A stretch of DNA of 25,748 nt, taken from positions 1-25,748 of IMG/VR virus record IMGVR_UViG_3300015371_000155; one strand, written 5' to 3'. How positions within the stretch are numbered: position 1 is the first letter of the stretch; each line of letters opens with the position of its first letter. This DNA is from a virus. A model generated the notes under the pieces. That model did no database searches. It saw only the letters and a program-made list of their open reading frames with translations, and was not told the origin of the DNA. Below, piece by piece: positions 16,668-23,928 of this stretch. The translations under genes and the position numbers were made by a program.

Positions 16668-18722
16668 TCAGGGCAGACGGGTGAAGCTCCAGTTGGCGTC
16701 CTCGCTGCTCGCGATGAAGTGCGAGGAGTCCGGAACGGCGACGATGTTCAGCGTGTCGCCCACGGCCAGTGCAGGCTGCGCACCAGCGGTCAGGGTCGCG
16801 CCCGTGTCGGCGTTCTCGTAGGTCACACCGGTCGTGGCGACGATGGTCACGACACCCGTCGACTCGTCGAAGGTCGGGTCGTTCGGGACCACCGCGGTGT
16901 CGCCGGCGTCGGCGATCTTGATGATCAGCGCGGACTTGATCTTCACCAGCGCACCGGAGAGACGGGTCTCACCCAGGTACTTGTACTGGTTGTAGTCGAT
17001 GTCGAAGTCGTCGAAGAAGTTGACCTCGCCACCCTTGTCGGTACCGACGTTGTAGTCCGCCAGGTTGACGACGATGCCCAGGACGTCCGGCTCCTGGTCC
17101 ATGACCTCGACCTCGACGATGCTGCCGACACCCAGCTCGGAGGCCAGGTCGTCGCGGTTGCGGTACAGGCGCCGGCCCATGCCGTCCTTGGTCTGCAGCA
17201 TGCGGGTGATGTTCCGCCGGGTGGCGTACAGGGTCGGCGAGCCGGTGCCCTTGTAGTACTCCATGTCCAGCTGGACCTGGTCGATCGCCGCCTGGTACGG
17301 GTTCGAACCCGTGCCGATCTGGACGTACGTCGTGGTGGCGTACAGCTCGTTCTCGTGCAGGATCGACCGGATGCCGTCGCCGGAAGCGGCCGCGGCCGGG
17401 TCCTTGATCTTGTCCGGGTTGGGCTGGCCGGCGTTGTCCGGGTCCTCCGGGTCACGACCGTCGCCGATGAGGATCGCGCGCGCGATTTCCTCCTCGAGCA
17501 TGAGCCGCATCTCACCCTTCATCCACGCCACGACGTCGAGGTCGGTGATGTCGATGATGGTGTCGCGGTCCAGCTTCTGCTTCTTGTAGACCGTGGTCGG
17601 GCCGGTCGAGCGGGACGACAGGTCGAACCACTCTTCCTTCTTGTAGTTCCCGGTGATGTAACCCAGGGCCCGCGCCTTGTCCTGCGTGATGTCCGCCACG
17701 ATGCTCTTGACCTTGGCGAACGGCGACTTGCTGACGCCGCCGAGCACGCCGGCCACCCACTCGGTGCGACGCTTGTTCCACTGCGGGGTGTTCTCGAGGG
17801 TCTTGGCCTCCGGGAACAGCAGCTCGATGTCGTTGATGCCGTGCTCGAGGTGCTTCTCGGCGTAGGCGAGCATCGACTTCTTCAGCGAACCGGTGTGGTT
17901 GAGAGCGTCGTGCACGATGCTGCGCACGTCGTCGCGGGAAATGGAGATGCCGTGACGCAGCTCTCCGCCACCCTGACCGCCCTGCTGGCCGCCACCCTGA
18001 CCGTAGGTCTCGAAGACGTTCCGAGTCATGCCGTTGTTTCCTTCCTGGTGTTCGAGGTTCTCGTCCTCGTCGGGGTCGCCGGCGGGGTCTTCGCCGTCGG
18101 TGTCGGAGTGCTTGGCGGAACCGGCCTGAGCCTGCTCCACCGCGGTTCCGATCATGTATTGCAGGAGCTTGACCTGCTCCTCGTTCAGGGAGTCGTAGAC
18201 GTCCTGAAGGGTGGCGTGAGCCAGCTCGAGCTCTTCCTCGTCGTACTCCTCGCGATCCGAGTGCACGAGCGGGAGTTCCCAGGCGCTGATGATCGCCGCG
18301 TCGTCCAGGTCCTCGACGTCGCCGTCGGAGTGCCGGATCGAGACGTTGGTGATGAACGCACCGGGGTTGGCGCCGGCGAGGCAGAGGCTGACCTCACGGA
18401 TGACACCGTGGAGGACCTGCTTCGACTTCTCGACCAGCTGGTTGGCGAAGATCGACAGCGCCTTGACGTCACCATGCTCGACGAGAGCGCGAGCGGCCTG
18501 GCCGGCCTTGGTGTCGTTGAAGAAGCCTTCGGTCCAGACGCCTTCGGGGCGGTTGTAGAGAACCGCGTGACCGAGAACGTTCTCGGGGGAGTTGTGGCCG
18601 TGCTGCCAGACCAGCGGAACCGTGACCTTGTCCTGATCCTTGAAGGCGTCAGGCCGAATGGTACGTCCGTCGGTGCACTTGAGATTAGCCTTGGTTGCCC
18701 AACCGCTGAAGTTGGCTTCCAT
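16668..18722 (-). CDS. Fused prohead protease, scaffold-like region and major capsid protein, 684 aa
   Basis: ATG at 18722 follows AGGAGA with an eight-base spacer and overlaps the portal frame by 38 bases. Residues 1-130 are an S78-type prohead protease: VPLVWQHGHNSPENVLGHA with His41/His43, and the serine motif REVSLCLAGANPGA with Ser112. Residues about 131-230 are acidic and probably helical, with EEYDEEELELAHATLQDVYD and EDPAGDPDEDENLEH, a scaffold (delta)-like region. From residue 232 (MTRNVFETYGQGG) the capsid follows with QWNKRRTEWVAG, DVVAWMKGEMRLMLEEEIAR, AILIGDG, GSPTLYATRRNITRM and a HK97-like C-terminal half. The last ~70 residues (PTFDESTGVVTIVATTGVTY to NWSFTRLP) are an Ig-like extension similar to that of the tube protein. 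An internal ATG behind GGAAGGA at residue 232 could yield capsid alone. Third codon positions are nearly all G or C. Confidence 0.9.
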   Translation of the reverse strand: MEANFSGWATKANLKCTDGRTIRPDAFKDQDKVTVPLVWQHGHNSPENVLGHAVLYNRPEGVWTEGFFNDTKAGQAARALVEHGDVKALSIFANQLVEKSKQVLHGVIREVSLCLAGANPGAFITNVSIRHSDGDVEDLDDAAIISAWELPLVHSDREEYDEEELELAHATLQDVYDSLNEEQVKLLQYMIGTAVEQAQAGSAKHSDTDGEDPAGDPDEDENLEHQEGNNGMTRNVFETYGQGGGQQGGQGGGELRHGISISRDDVRSIVHDALNHTGSLKKSMLAYAEKHLEHGINDIELLFPEAKTLENTPQWNKRRTEWVAGVLGGVSKSPFAKVKSIVADITQDKARALGYITGNYKKEEWFDLSSRSTGPTTVYKKQKLDRDTIIDITDLDVVAWMKGEMRLMLEEEIARAILIGDGRDPEDPDNAGQPNPDKIKDPAAAASGDGIRSILHENELYATTTYVQIGTGSNPYQAAIDQVQLDMEYYKGTGSPTLYATRRNITRMLQTKDGMGRRLYRNRDDLASELGVGSIVEVEVMDQEPDVLGIVVNLADYNVGTDKGGEVNFFDDFDIDYNQYKYLGETRLSGALVKIKSALIIKIADAGDTAVVPNDPTFDESTGVVTIVATTGVTYENADTGATLTAGAQPALAVGDTLNIVAVPDSSHFIASSEDANWSFTRLP
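18027..18045 (-). promoter_or_regulatory. Candidate internal ribosome site for capsid-only product
   Basis: Within the fused frame, GGAAGGA (18045-18039) lies nine bases before an in-frame ATG at 18029, exactly where the acidic region ends and the capsid part begins (MTRNVFE). Initiation here would give a 453-residue capsid protein without protease. The site is seen; its use is inference. Confidence 0.45.
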
Positions 18723-19965
18723 TTTGACTATCTCCTTCCTGAACTGGTTGTGGAACTGGCTCCGACGGAGCCGGCATGTTGGCATTGACGAGCTTGTCAG
18801 CTTCGGGATCCTTGGAAGGCTTCCGACCAACGACCTGCCGCATCTCGTTGGCGCTGAGAATCTTGTTCCGAGTGAACTTGTCCGCGATGTCTGCGAGCTT
18901 CTCCATCGGAACAAACTTGAACGGATCGTGGAAGGCCATGATCGATTGCTTCTGCTTCCGCGCCGTCTTGGTGAGGAAGGTGCGTCGCATGGCTTCGACG
19001 ATCGCCGTGAGCACAGGCTCGATGGTCCGGTTGTGGTAGTTGAGCATGGCCGCTTCATCGGCCGTGCCCTTCATGATGTCCTCGGTGATGCCGAGTTGGC
19101 CGTACACCTGAGGAACCAACCACTCGATCTGCTTGAGGAGGTTGTTCTCCGCCGGACGGTTCAGCTGAGTGATCTTCTCGGTACCGTCAGCGTAGGCGAT
19201 GCCGTACTGGCTGCCCTTGAGCTGCATCTCGATGTCCTTGCGCCGCTTCTCAGCAGCGTCTCGCCTGGACTCCGACTTGATCACGTATGGAAGCTGAATG
19301 ATCATGTCGATCTTGCCCGAGGCAACCGCTTCGTCGGAGACATCGAGCAGACTGAGCTTCTGTGTCAGCCGCTTGAGCATCGAGTTCGATGAGTTCATCA
19401 CGGAGTAAAACGGATTCTCCGCAATCGCGACGATCTTCTTCGGGAGCGTGATCTCCTCCCGAATGCCCTTCTTCTCGTTGTACAGACTCACCCGTACGTG
19501 ACGAGGGTGGAAGTTGACGACCTCGCCGACCCGCATGGTGTTGATGTCGAACCCGCCCGTAACGAGTGGATTCAACGTCGTATCCACCGGAACTACAGCA
19601 GCAACACCCTTGTCGAACAACGTGAAAGCGATGTCCAAAAGAAGTGCTGTTGCCGCTTGGTCCAAGTTGGCTTCGGTCTTCAGACAGTCGTTGAGATTAC
19701 TGTCGATCTCTTCCGTGAAACGATCTTCGTCATCCAGACGAACGTGCCGGAGATTTGCTGAAGCGACATCGATGGCCATCCGCGTGATGATCGAGGAGAT
19801 GATCGAGCGATCGTTCGAAAAGCTCGTTCGAGGCGCGTATGGACGAAGATCGAAGCTGGCGTTACCGTAGCTGAACTGTTCCATCCGCTCGGTGCCGTCG
19901 TCGATCCGAGAAAATACGTTCCACGCGTGTTTGATCTGCCTCAGTCTGTCGCCGATTCTGCTCAT
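18685..19965 (-). CDS. Portal protein, 426 aa
   Basis: ATG at 19965 follows GAGGAGGTGACCC, an almost perfect ribosome site. The N-terminus (MSRIGDRLRQIKHAWNVFSR) is followed by TSFSNDRSIISSIITRMAID, FTLFDKGVAAVVPVDT, GEVVNFHPRHVRVSLYNEKK, the KGIREEITLPKKIVAIAENP strand region, SYGIAYADGTEKITQLNRPA-like sequence, LGITEDIMKGTADEAAMLNY (a typical portal crown/clip motif) and LTAIVEAMRRTFLTKTARKQ. A C-terminal region contains LSANEMRQVVGRKPS and ends in a low-complexity P/Q/N tail. The portal ring is the DNA entry and exit channel and joins terminase and head-tail connectors. Length is typical of HK97-type portals. Confidence 0.93.
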   Translation of the reverse strand: MSRIGDRLRQIKHAWNVFSRIDDGTERMEQFSYGNASFDLRPYAPRTSFSNDRSIISSIITRMAIDVASANLRHVRLDDEDRFTEEIDSNLNDCLKTEANLDQAATALLLDIAFTLFDKGVAAVVPVDTTLNPLVTGGFDINTMRVGEVVNFHPRHVRVSLYNEKKGIREEITLPKKIVAIAENPFYSVMNSSNSMLKRLTQKLSLLDVSDEAVASGKIDMIIQLPYVIKSESRRDAAEKRRKDIEMQLKGSQYGIAYADGTEKITQLNRPAENNLLKQIEWLVPQVYGQLGITEDIMKGTADEAAMLNYHNRTIEPVLTAIVEAMRRTFLTKTARKQKQSIMAFHDPFKFVPMEKLADIADKFTRNKILSANEMRQVVGRKPSKDPEADKLVNANMPAPSEPVPQPVQEGDSQNGSQLQRLGNQG

Positions 19966-19994: not shown

Positions 19995-20408
19995 CTAGCG
20001 GCGGTTCTTGTTGTTCTCCTGGCGCTGCTCGATCGCTCGAGATACCGCAGAGGTGCCAGCGATGGCGCCCGCCGCGCCGGCCGGGGTGGCGAGGATGGCC
20101 AAAGCGATCTTCTCGCCCCGGGTCAGTCGAGCCGCGATGACGCGGTCCGGGTTGTTGAGGAAGTCCGTCTTCATCTTGTCGAACTTCTTCTGCGCCTTGG
20201 CCCGTTCGGCGCTGCCCTTGGGCTTGGCCTTGACCACGTCCTTCTGATCGAGAACGTCGGCAGCCATTCGGCTCACGTTCCGGCGAGCAGCACGGATCTG
20301 AGTGCCGTTGGCCTTGGCGCGGTGTCGGCCCCACTTCATGCCGAGAACGCCATAGTGCTCGAGAGTCTCCTCGGGGGAGGGCCTCTCGAAGCCTACGAAC
20401 TGTGTCAT
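19995..20408 (-). CDS. EHYGVxGMKWG-motif head-associated protein, 137 aa
   Basis: ATG at 20408 overlaps the large-terminase stop by four bases (ATGA) and follows AAGGAGGCTTTCGA. Residues 17-27 read EHYGVLGMKWG, followed by a highly basic stretch (GRHRAKANGTQIRAARRNVS), then KPKGSAERAKAQKKFDKMKT, a DFLNNPDRVIAARLTRGEKI block, and a single hydrophobic helix (ALAILATPAGAAGAIAGTSA, about 103-124) before a polar end. The motif recurs twice in the 2H-phosphoesterase protein at 22165-23508. From memory, proteins with this peptide are common beside terminase and portal genes in phages of Gram-positive hosts, and no function is known to me. It may be a capsid-internal or membrane-ejected protein; the hydrophobic helix supports the latter. 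Confidence 0.75.
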   Translation of the reverse strand: MTQFVGFERPSPEETLEHYGVLGMKWGRHRAKANGTQIRAARRNVSRMAADVLDQKDVVKAKPKGSAERAKAQKKFDKMKTDFLNNPDRVIAARLTRGEKIALAILATPAGAAGAIAGTSAVSRAIEQRQENNKNRR

Positions 20409-22150
20409 TCGAAAGCCTCCTTATGAAGCTTATAGGCTACGTATGCATCCATCATTGCGGACACGTTGTCGATTTTTTCGTCGTAGCGACGCTTCAGAAG
20501 CTTTCGGTTACCATTGGTATCCTCGAGAATCATTGCGTTGCCCATGGTGTACTGCATCAGTGCTTCATCAAACAGAAGAAGACGCTCGCCGGCCAGGATC
20601 TTCAGTTCGCCGAGCGGAACGGATTCCGTCTTAGCGCCCTGAATAACCTTTTCGATTCCGTAAGGTCCGTTCTCTTGCTCGTACCGGTTCACGAACTCTT
20701 TGGCATTGTAGGGGTCGTAGCCAAAGGAGCGGACGTCGTACTCCATGTTCTGAATATGCTGATCGAGGTCGTCATAGACCTCCATCATGTCTAGGACAGT
20801 ACCTTCCATGACATGAAGGCTTCCCTCACGAATGAACTCTTCGTACTTCTGGCGCTGTGCTCCGGGGAGTTTCATCAGAGTTAGATTCGTAATATAGCTA
20901 CGAGTCTTTATGCCGAATCTATCGCCCCTAAGTGGGAACATAAAGGTAAACGCACAGAAGTCATCGCCCATCGAAAGGTCTGCACCCAACGAGCAGGTCA
21001 TACCCCAGAAATTCTGTTGGCGATGTACCAAAGTTTCATCGTACGTGAAGAAGTATGTGAACCCCTCCATCGGAATACCGAACCGCTTCGCCAGGATATC
21101 GTTGCGCGAAGCAGGAGCTTTCTCAGCTCGTTCAACGTCCAGATGATAGACGTCGTATGTGACGGTCTTTCCGAGATTTGGGTTTGCCTTCACCCATGTG
21201 GATGGATCGGCAACTTCCTCGATCTCGTCGAGCTTGTAATGCCAGATGGAAACGTGAGGAGCAATGTACTCGCCCTTCAGAATTTCCATTAGCTCTAGCT
21301 TGATGGTGTCACCAGCACCGTTTCGAACGGTTCCTTCGGAGCTGATAGCTAGAATGATGTAATCATCTAGTTTCGAAGCACCCTGTTCGATAGCACCAAT
21401 GACGTCTTCACGAAGATCACCGGATAGCCACTCATCTACAGTGTTAACCTTGGTGCGAAGACCCTGCAGTTTGTTGATCGCCATGGGGCGAATCTCAACG
21501 ATCGAACCGGTTAAGAAATTCTCGACACCTTTCTTTGTCGAGGCCAACTTAACTCGGTTGGCTCGTGATCCGGTTGTGTTCTGCAGAGAACCTTCGGTGA
21601 GAAATTTGAAGAGCGGACCTTTCGCGCGCGTGATAGACGTGCGCATTGGGGACATGACCTCTTCGGCCTGCTTCATGGTGGGAGCAGTCGTGATCTGATG
21701 CGTAGTGGTGGTGTCGACGTTCAAGAAATAGTTCTGAATGAACGAAGCGTACATCGACTTGGCGGCACCTCGAGCGACGATCAAATATTGCTTAGTGATC
21801 AGTCGCTTCTTGACCTGCTTCGTGACGTACTTACCACTACGACCATCCTTGGCCGGCTCAAAAATCTGTCTCTCGACAAAGTAGAACCAACCAAAAATCT
21901 GTTCGCCCCACAACTTGAACGAGTCAAGCAAATACAGATCGCCGCCGTCTGTGAGAGTCAGTTCTTTCTCACAATATGCAATCCAGCCTTCGACGGCTTT
22001 GTCGTCGTAGTAAATGTTGGGGTTGGCGATGAGCGCATCGATTCGGTTCATCTCCATGGAAATTTCCCGACAAACGGGAATCTCTCCACGAATAACCGCA
22101 TCACGGAACTGGCCGTAATAGATCGGTGTCGCTGTGTTAGACAAACTCAT
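20405..22150 (-). CDS. Terminase large subunit, 581 aa
   Basis: ATG at 22150 lies six bases after AAGGAGG; a TTG six bases upstream would overlap that site. The N-terminal half carries Walker A VARGAAKS (about residues 125-132) preceded by KRLITKQYL, and a Walker B-like VNTVDEW with Asp239/Glu240. The coupling motif region includes IILAISSEGT. The C-terminal nuclease has SLGADLSMGDDFCAF (Asp391 and following acids), SFGYDPYNA with Asp479, and NVSAMMDAYVAY near the end. It is an HK97-type terminase_1 family ATPase-nuclease that cuts and translocates DNA into the prohead through the portal. It sits between the 2H-phosphoesterase gene and the motif protein. Confidence 0.94.
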   Translation of the reverse strand: MSLSNTATPIYYGQFRDAVIRGEIPVCREISMEMNRIDALIANPNIYYDDKAVEGWIAYCEKELTLTDGGDLYLLDSFKLWGEQIFGWFYFVERQIFEPAKDGRSGKYVTKQVKKRLITKQYLIVARGAAKSMYASFIQNYFLNVDTTTTHQITTAPTMKQAEEVMSPMRTSITRAKGPLFKFLTEGSLQNTTGSRANRVKLASTKKGVENFLTGSIVEIRPMAINKLQGLRTKVNTVDEWLSGDLREDVIGAIEQGASKLDDYIILAISSEGTVRNGAGDTIKLELMEILKGEYIAPHVSIWHYKLDEIEEVADPSTWVKANPNLGKTVTYDVYHLDVERAEKAPASRNDILAKRFGIPMEGFTYFFTYDETLVHRQQNFWGMTCSLGADLSMGDDFCAFTFMFPLRGDRFGIKTRSYITNLTLMKLPGAQRQKYEEFIREGSLHVMEGTVLDMMEVYDDLDQHIQNMEYDVRSFGYDPYNAKEFVNRYEQENGPYGIEKVIQGAKTESVPLGELKILAGERLLLFDEALMQYTMGNAMILEDTNGNRKLLKRRYDEKIDNVSAMMDAYVAYKLHKEAFE

Positions 22151-22164
22151 CGCCAACCTCCTTC

Positions 22165-23508
22165 CTACTTCTTGACCGCCTGATCGGCGAGTCCCTTGAG
22201 CTGACCGGTGACCGTCTGAGTGACGACCTGCTTGCCGGAATCCGCGAGGATCTTACCGATCAGAACCCTGCCCTTCTGGACACGAGTCCGATCGTTGCCG
22301 CCGGAAAGACGCGAATACTGCTGCTCGAGGTTCATCCGGGTGATGGCGTCCTGCAGTTCCTTGTTGCTCAGCGGACGAGTGGTCTTCTGAGCCTTGACCC
22401 GCATGTGGATGTCGGTGACGTGCTGCGAGTCGGGGTGACTCGCTTCGGTCTGCCGACTCTTCCGCTTGCCCCACTTCATGCCCTTGACGCCGTAGTGCTC
22501 GATGACGCCCTCGTCGGCCGTGTTGGCATCGGTGATGAAACCGTTCGCGTCCAACTTCAGCTTGATCGTGAGGTCCGGCATCGGGATGGGGTCAGCGTGA
22601 CGGGCGTTCACATCCCGAATTTCGATGCGAGGACCCTGCGAGTCGTTGACGTAGACGGCCCGCTTGGTGCCGGAAGGACTGATGCCGTGAACCTCGTTGA
22701 CCGACTGCTTGTAGACCCGATCATTCAGCTTCGCGTACTCCTTGTAGTAGAGTTCGGCCAGCTTCCTGTTGGTGTTGAGGTTCTTGCCCTTCCACCGGGG
22801 ATCGTTGTTGTGTTTGTCGATCAACCCGTTGTTCATCTTGTGGGCGACGTGGTTGTGCAACGCGACGGCGCCGCGGACCGAGTAAATCGTCTTGGCCCAC
22901 TTCTCGTCCTTGCGATGGCCCCACTTCATGCCTTTGACGCCGTAGTGCTCGAGGATTTCCTCGACCTCCTGGGCGTTCAGTACCTGCGACATGGCTACCT
23001 CCAGGCCACGATCTTCATTGAGTTTGAACGTAGGGCCTTCGGAGTCACCAACCCACATGGCGATCTTGTCGAAGTTCACCCAAGAAATGGGGTAGTCGTT
23101 CGTGTCCTTGTGCGCCGGGGTCTCGGGATACCCAAGCGTGAGATGAGGCGTCCATGACGGGAATTGATCCGCCGACAGATATGCCTTGTCGATGTCTTGG
23201 TTGGCGCGAAGCTGCGAACGGAATCGCTCGAGCTCTTTGAACGACCAAGACTTGTTGAAGAACAGAACGTCTGCAGATTTGTCGCCGAGCACACCACGGT
23301 GATCGACCGACATCCCGAACGAGTGGAAATTTGCGGCTGCGTGCTTCACGTATGAAGCTACTTCAGCCATCTGGTTTCCATCCCAGTTGGTCGAACCGAG
23401 ATACAACAGCGTGATGTGTGGGACCTTCTCGCTGGAGACCTTCCAGGTTCGGTCGTCGTCACTCGGGATGGCTACGATCACCAACTCGAGGCGGCTAGGA
23501 TCTGCCAC
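22165..23508 (-). CDS. 2H-phosphoesterase fused to two EHYGVKGMKWG modules, 447 aa
   Basis: GTG at 23508 is chosen because AGAGGAGG lies five bases upstream; an ATG at 23541 has no such site. Residues 1-135 form a 2H-phosphoesterase (RNA ligase/cyclic-phosphodiesterase superfamily): two HxTL motifs, PHITLLYLG (His31) and PHLTLGYP (His122), about 90 residues apart as in that fold. Residue 187 starts EHYGVKGMKWGHRK, and residue 337 starts EHYGVKGMKWGKRK. Between them lies an independent domain (YSVRGAVALHNHVAHKMNNG, YKEYAKLNDRVYKQSVNEVH). After the second copy comes RPLSNKELQDAITRMNLEQQ and a helical tail ending GLADQAVKK. Domain architecture is unusual. Enzymatic function is inferred from the two motifs; substrate unknown. 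The position before terminase suggests a virion or packaging role. Confidence 0.82.
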   Translation of the reverse strand: MADPSRLELVIVAIPSDDDRTWKVSSEKVPHITLLYLGSTNWDGNQMAEVASYVKHAAANFHSFGMSVDHRGVLGDKSADVLFFNKSWSFKELERFRSQLRANQDIDKAYLSADQFPSWTPHLTLGYPETPAHKDTNDYPISWVNFDKIAMWVGDSEGPTFKLNEDRGLEVAMSQVLNAQEVEEILEHYGVKGMKWGHRKDEKWAKTIYSVRGAVALHNHVAHKMNNGLIDKHNNDPRWKGKNLNTNRKLAELYYKEYAKLNDRVYKQSVNEVHGISPSGTKRAVYVNDSQGPRIEIRDVNARHADPIPMPDLTIKLKLDANGFITDANTADEGVIEHYGVKGMKWGKRKSRQTEASHPDSQHVTDIHMRVKAQKTTRPLSNKELQDAITRMNLEQQYSRLSGGNDRTRVQKGRVLIGKILADSGKQVVTQTVTGQLKGLADQAVKK

Positions 23509-23556
23509 GGTTACCTCCTCTCGTTTGAAAAAACCCGACACCCGGTGAAAGCTGCG

Positions 23557-23928
23557 TCAGGGAATGACGATCACAGTCGGGTCGACCCAGTCGGTCTCCT
23601 CGCGGAGAGCGTTGAGTCGCCACTCGAATTGCTCGATCTGCTCCTTCATCATGGTGTTGGCGATCGACGACTGCGGTGGGTCGAAGAGACTCCGAACCAC
23701 CAGGTAGACGTACGTCTTCACCATGTTGTACTTCGGGTTGGAAGCGAGGAAGGTGTCCCAAGTAGCTTGGTCATCCTCGATCTCAAAACCTTCCACGGGA
23801 CCAACGCCAAGCTGGTTCAGCTTGGAGAAGGCAGTGTTGATGTGAGTCATCACGGAGAAGTCGAAGGCCGTGTAGGACTCTTCGATGTCAAGAATCTTCT
23901 TCGTGCTTTGCAGAATGCTGTCGCTCAT
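23557..23928 (-). CDS. Head-tail connector-like protein, 123 aa
   Basis: ATG at 23928 follows GGAGGTGACCCA, an exact Shine-Dalgarno. The protein (MSDSILQSTKKILDIEESYT, AFDFSVMTHINTAFSKLNQL, VGPVEGFEIEDDQATWDTFL, YNMVKTYVYLVVRSLFDPPQ, KEQIEQFEWRLNALREETDW) is all-helical. It matches the small connector family with the sequence M-V-K-x-Y-V-Y-L-x-V-R-x-L-F-D-P-P and E-Q-x-E-W-R-L that I recall from many actinophage head modules. It likely binds below the portal. It is encoded upstream of the terminase rather than after the capsid, an order also seen in related phages. Confidence 0.72.
   Translation of the reverse strand: MSDSILQSTKKILDIEESYTAFDFSVMTHINTAFSKLNQLGVGPVEGFEIEDDQATWDTFLASNPKYNMVKTYVYLVVRSLFDPPQSSIANTMMKEQIEQFEWRLNALREETDWVDPTVIVIP

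Follow-up and report, generated by a model that had tools for sequence, protein, structure and literature searches.

What does a 2H phosphoesterase do among the head genes of a phage, and might it travel with the particle into the cell? We asked this of one gene in a virus fragment of 25,748 bases (the window, by which we mean the whole stretch of DNA analyzed). The gene occupies positions 22165-23508 and encodes 447 amino acids. These coordinates, as given in the earlier note, were correct, and the coding strand, which that note left unsaid, is the minus strand. The reading frame opens with a GTG at 23506-23508, preceded by the ribosome-binding site GAGGAGG (23514-23520, minus strand), and closes with a stop codon at 22165-22167. 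Genes for a small protein, an HNH protein, an amidase and a Phage_connect_2 connector (23557-23928; Pfam E 8.3e-36) precede it on the same strand. It is followed, again on the minus strand, by the terminase large subunit gene (TerL, 20405-22156), a second DUF7211 protein of 137 amino acids in the TerL/portal interval (19995-20408, with its motif at 20313-20375), the portal (18685-19965) and a head maturation protease-major capsid fusion (16668-18800, part of an open reading frame spanning 16668-19058). With connector, TerL, portal and protease-capsid fusion as its surroundings, the gene does lie in a head module, as had been suggested. The whole protein has matches in 275 of 50,697 phage records and its 2H domain alone in 126; some relatives of the whole protein were named "RNA ligase" by their depositors. 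Neither PADLOC nor a sequence search of the PDB returned a match to the 447-residue protein.

The N-terminal domain (residues 5-168; 23005-23496, minus strand) is very probably an intact enzyme, judging from sequence conservation and a predicted structure. Pfam 2_5_RNA_ligase2 matches residues 28-133 (E 1.4e-8) and LigT_PEase matches the N-terminus (E 1.1e-5), both above their curated cut-offs. The paired HxTL motifs are found where the earlier note placed them, at His31-Ile-Thr33 (HITL; 23410-23418, minus strand) and His122-Leu-Thr124 (HLTL; 23137-23145, minus strand). Both HxT motifs are invariant in all 67 aligned 2H domains, in which R71, G75, D80, Q115, W152 and G158 are also conserved at 1.0. 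In the AlphaFold model of the protein, built with 59 sequences, the pLDDT of this domain is mostly >90. Together with the Pfam matches above cut-off and VIA Z scores of 12-13, this confidence marks a LigT-like fold, and the conserved HxT motifs in a confident model support an intact predicted active site over a degenerate pocket. It is very improbable that the domain is a dead fold kept as a mere building block of the head. This idea has no direct support, and against it stand the invariance of both motifs and the HxT/S pairs readable in all four MuF, protease or portal fusions that we read (the first motif of the OneinaGillian protein is HLT in the printed sequence).

Which substrate the domain would act on is less clearly indicated by its fold. 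The closest solved structures in VIA are plant CPDase (1jh6; Z 13.1, 146 aligned residues, 3.6 Å), YjcG (Z 12.9, 139 residues, 3.3 Å), Usb1 (Z 12.6, 148 residues, 3.3 Å) and LigT/ThpR (Z about 12.3-12.4, 142 residues, 3.1 Å). These enzymes share about 10-18% identity with the domain, and we know of none that carries a head tag. Rotavirus VP3, a virion protein, follows with its C-terminal 2',5'-phosphodiesterase (Z 11.2, 137 residues, 3.6 Å); it too has a 2H domain, on a different carrier and in a eukaryotic RNA virus. FBB1 Acb1 ranks lower (Z 9.0, 116 residues, 3.2 Å, 21% identity). Foldseek gave a similar picture, with Usb1 (E 8e-7), plant CPDase and E. coli LigT among the matches and Acb1 at E 4e-3; a profile search of PDB sequences with the 2H family returned weak, unrelated rows. 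Acb1 is described, in sections of Hobbs et al. 2022 (PMC9117128), as an anti-CBASS 2H phosphoesterase with aromatic stacking residues (Y12, W74, F107, W147) and a C-terminal lid. LigT-like viral enzymes that cut cGAMP are described in Nomburg et al. 2024 (PMC11410667). The T4 and FBB1 Acb1 proteins and the domain studied here are phage-encoded and have in common the 2H fold and, within it, the HxT/HxT tetrad, whereas Acb1 is a small single-domain protein and ours is a head-module fusion. Because Acb1 ranks below CPDase, YjcG, LigT and Usb1, a preference for cyclic dinucleotides is not indicated. On the predicted model, the ranks do not separate an Acb1-like from a LigT/Usb1-like enzyme, the latter standing higher.

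This ranking of RNA and ADPR-cyclic-phosphate enzymes speaks for a second reading, in which the protein, delivered in the virion or made late, would be an enzyme that trims or cuts RNA, either a Usb1-like RNase acting on host RNA or an enzyme that opens 2',3'-cyclic phosphates at RNA ends so that host enzymes can repair them. A weak match to TIGR02258 (RNA 2',3'-cyclic phosphodiesterase; 29.9 bits, below the cut-off of 65.7) points the same way, as do the "RNA ligase" names of some relatives and the RNase role that a passage in Iyer et al. 2017 (PMC5512222) offers for 2H fusions to MuF and portal proteins. We looked for RNA_ligase, KptA and RtcB at E 0.001 in 18 records with a fused 2H domain, some of which are metagenome contigs and may be incomplete. 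None of the 18 had a match, and the controls were recovered; a further search with RNA_lig_T4_1 matched nothing anywhere, control genomes included. Because all three partners are missing from these 18 records, RNA repair encoded by the phage looks less likely. A repair partner could nonetheless come from the host, and for an RNase no partner would be required. The earlier note called repair of RNA or tRNA ends an equally open alternative; its phage-encoded form is weakened, and the protein may still act as an RNase or in an RNA role coupled to the host. Overall we consider an RNA enzyme unlikely, though clearly less so than the other alternatives weighed in this study.

The rest of the protein suggests how the enzyme would be held. 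The two copies of a putative head-docking module reported earlier correspond to Pfam DUF7211 (PF23847), a 25-residue motif that matches in two stretches (E 7.1e-24). Motif 1 covers residues 180-202 (22903-22971) and motif 2 about residues 336-358 (22435-22503), with HYGVKGMKWG copies at residues 188 and 338. The pLDDT is <50 in the motif regions, and motif 1 is predicted to be flexible. Between the motifs lies a middle helical/beta domain (residues 203-332; 22513-22902), and a C-terminal helical core (LSNKELQDAITRMNLEQQYSRL; residues 359-447; 22168-22434) ends the protein, all on the minus strand. Relatives of the core occur in 198 of 501 unique motif proteins collected from 293 loci (72 with 2H and 126 without), and relatives of the middle domain in 25, of which 14 lack 2H. 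A likeness of the middle domain to AriA was set aside, its fold rows reaching at most Z 6.2, under the level that the tool treats as meaningful. Sequence and profile searches of the PDB turned up no DUF7211 protein of solved structure, the profiles of 93 motif proteins giving weak and unrelated rows, and our literature search found no paper on DUF7211 or KGMKWG.

DUF7211 proteins keep close company with the terminase. We surveyed 48 phage records (8 named phages and 40 virus contigs), of which 35 were chosen for holding a motif or 2H protein and 13 through the connector alone. DUF7211 and TerL were both present in all 48, including all 13 connector-chosen records. Each of the 150 listed DUF7211 matches (152 in all by sum) shares the strand of TerL. 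Measured between low coordinates, and so accurate to <1 kb, the distance to the TerL nuclease domain is at most 3 kb for 130 of these 150 matches and at most 6 kb for 148, a range in which 22.5% would be expected by length. The motif also occurs at the C-terminus of a portal protein (L192:5124-6575). DUF7211 core genes were seen as well in genome contigs labeled Clostridia, Bacteroidales, Succinivibrionaceae, Saccharibacteria and a Thermoplasmata MAG (L205-L216), taxon labels that may be wrong for these MAGs.

The 447-residue gene fills the slot between connector and TerL, whose core is known with or without 2H, the latter in most relatives. Of 80 loci found through the connector alone, 18 have in the slot a motif protein with fused 2H, 44 a core no longer than 215 amino acids and 8 the motif with another domain; seven were missed by the regular expression and three lacked TerL by the criterion used. 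By eye, a degenerate motif can be seen in five of the seven missed loci (L233, L270, L281, L284, L286), and none is visible in the frame before TerL of L221 and L234. When fused 2H is mapped on a tree of 76 TerL rows, it requires at least six state changes, two of them forced by strongly supported branches. The slot protein of Streptomyces phage Bilo consists of GNAT and two DUF7211 motifs, and that of Lactococcus phage 1706 has two DUF7211 motifs without 2H and is annotated as "structural protein", presumably on the basis of mass spectrometry. A 2H gene that is divergent and stands on its own lies directly upstream of TerL in 8 of the 80 loci (L220, L221, L222, L231, L232, L234, L241, L273), and the separate and fused forms are homologous (hhalign probability 97.7). 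The two forms never overlap in these slots, an exclusion that is not significant (P 0.11).

These slot contents also bear on whether the protein is packaged at all. The DUF7211 core might be an assembly or scaffolding factor that stays in the cell, with the 2H domain working there late in infection, and the motif itself could be an assembly or portal-binding element that leaves the particle. The frequent short, cargo-free cores (44 of 80 loci) and the predicted disorder of the motif agree with this, as does the divergent separate 2H gene beside the core, which implies that fusion is not required because it adjoins the core in 8 of the 80 loci. We nevertheless regard an unpackaged protein as improbable, since the 2H domain is fused to MuF, protease and portal proteins as well and since the other enzymes found on DUF7211 proteins belong to classes typical of delivered effectors.

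The first of these arguments comes from the 126 phage records that contain the 2H domain, of which we listed 60, picked at even steps. Of those listed, 31 are from Streptomyces, Gordonia and Rhodococcus phages, where the protein is called hypothetical, RNA ligase, phosphoesterase or by a gene number; we take these to be the slot gene. Another 27 bear names such as capsid maturation protease, MuF-like fusion, capsid morphogenesis, head maturation protease or virion structural protein. The remaining two are a "membrane protein" (Sunfish), with its 2H domain N-terminal, and a portal-annotated protein (Rasputia, E 5e-4), with its 2H domain at residues 877-1012. In OneinaGillian and Odyssey395 a MuF match precedes the 2H match, that of OneinaGillian lying below the cut-off for MuF. 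The 2H relatives on MuF/protease fusions and on the one portal are recognizably related to the domain studied here, at about 25-39% identity. Iyer et al. 2017 (PMC5512222) and a paper of 2022 (PMC9503650) already propose that 2H fusions to MuF or portal are packaged, injected and possibly act against host nucleotide signals as counter-defense enzymes. In both cases a 2H domain sits on a head protein. Here the carrier differs, being a DUF7211 protein of the connector/TerL interval in which Pfam detects no MuF or portal domain. The proximity of DUF7211 to TerL, the slot and the 2H domains on other head proteins all lend indirect support to the head association suggested in the earlier note, and on these comparisons of sequences and gene order we think it quite likely that the 447-residue protein is head-associated. 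Virion proteomics of actinophages with these DUF7211 genes was not found in our literature search.

The second argument is the mixture of enzymes found on DUF7211 proteins. The 293 loci are a biased sample, drawn through overlapping 2H (80), motif (at most 120) and connector (80) queries, and counts from them should be read with this in mind. Local profiles detected 2H in 74 of the 501 motif proteins, an ART-like domain in 40, GNAT in 21 and Gln_amidase in 16; at least one of these four classes occurs in 144, two occur in 7, and 357 have none of the four. Some proteins combine 2H, GNAT and two DUF7211 tags. For 93 motif proteins that do not belong to the 2H cluster (from 109 clusters), Pfam found Gln_amidase in four, GNAT in two and portal in one, and NCBIfam likewise gave GNAT and portal names; a XopAD-type NCBIfam match was taken to be a repeat artefact. 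In Gordonia phage Mossy, gp13 is a 2H-DUF7211 protein, gp17 reads DUF7211-GNAT-DUF7211-Gln_amidase, and further DUF7211 genes (16, 19 and 20) surround TerL.

The ART-like passengers (L162:2161-3003, L112:3395-4480 and 38 others), a second large family on DUF7211 proteins, have a predicted ADP-ribosyltransferase/NADase-like fold. The model has a mean pLDDT of 76.5 and, in structure comparison, comes closest to MbcT (Z 8.1, 143 aligned residues, 3.9 Å); most of the next matches are ADP-ribosyltransferase folds at Z 5-6.5, where values <8 count as weak for this tool. Its best Foldseek match is a chain of the cyanophage A4 pre-ejectosome (E 9e-4); a literature search found nothing on BCSR5 or the cyanophage A4 ejectosome. 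A papain-fold, glutamine-deamidase-like C-terminal domain was matched by Pfam in L198:1029-2090 and recognized by resemblance or A1 scan in L130:4209-5207, L149:2037-3206 and L139:2021-3043. A small N-terminal domain (KPWSDYT...YT.EQW..ACLI) precedes DUF7211 in the slot genes L104:11019-12215, L108:4035-4808, L252:1750-2586 and L277:5164-5964. MuF-fused effector proteins and T4 Alt, both named in a passage of PMC5512222, are comparable as head proteins with interchangeable enzyme domains or as a virion enzyme; the effectors have a MuF domain, in place of which a short 25-residue motif is found here.

We propose that the 447-residue protein is a minor head protein, which the helical core at its C-terminus, together with one or two DUF7211 motifs, would dock in or on the head. 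The N-terminal 2H phosphoesterase would be cargo, packed at assembly and entering the cell with the DNA. Its two HxT motifs would cut 2',3'-cyclic or 3'-5'/2'-5'-linked (oligo)nucleotides, with host defense nucleotide signals as the likeliest target. We put the probability of a head-docked, injected 2H cargo that cuts host defense signals at roughly one in two, and that it is both delivered and acts mainly on defense nucleotides at even odds or a shade below. More broadly, with slightly less than even confidence, DUF7211 may be a short signal that loads cargo in one widespread type of phage head, its carriers being drawn into the head or kept at it and delivered with the DNA. Fusion to the tag would then let phages trade 2H, ART-like, GNAT, papain-fold deamidase and other domains, in some cases with several enzymes on one chain and tags between them. 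New here are DUF7211 as the carrier and its mixed enzyme cargo.

If this is right, a 25-residue motif would mark injected proteins in many phages of Actinobacteria and Firmicutes, and could be used as a loading tag. Hundreds of nameless genes next to the terminase would become testable effectors of early host takeover or counter-defense. The 447-residue protein itself would predict counter-defense that precedes any phage gene expression, unlike that of enzymes made after infection.
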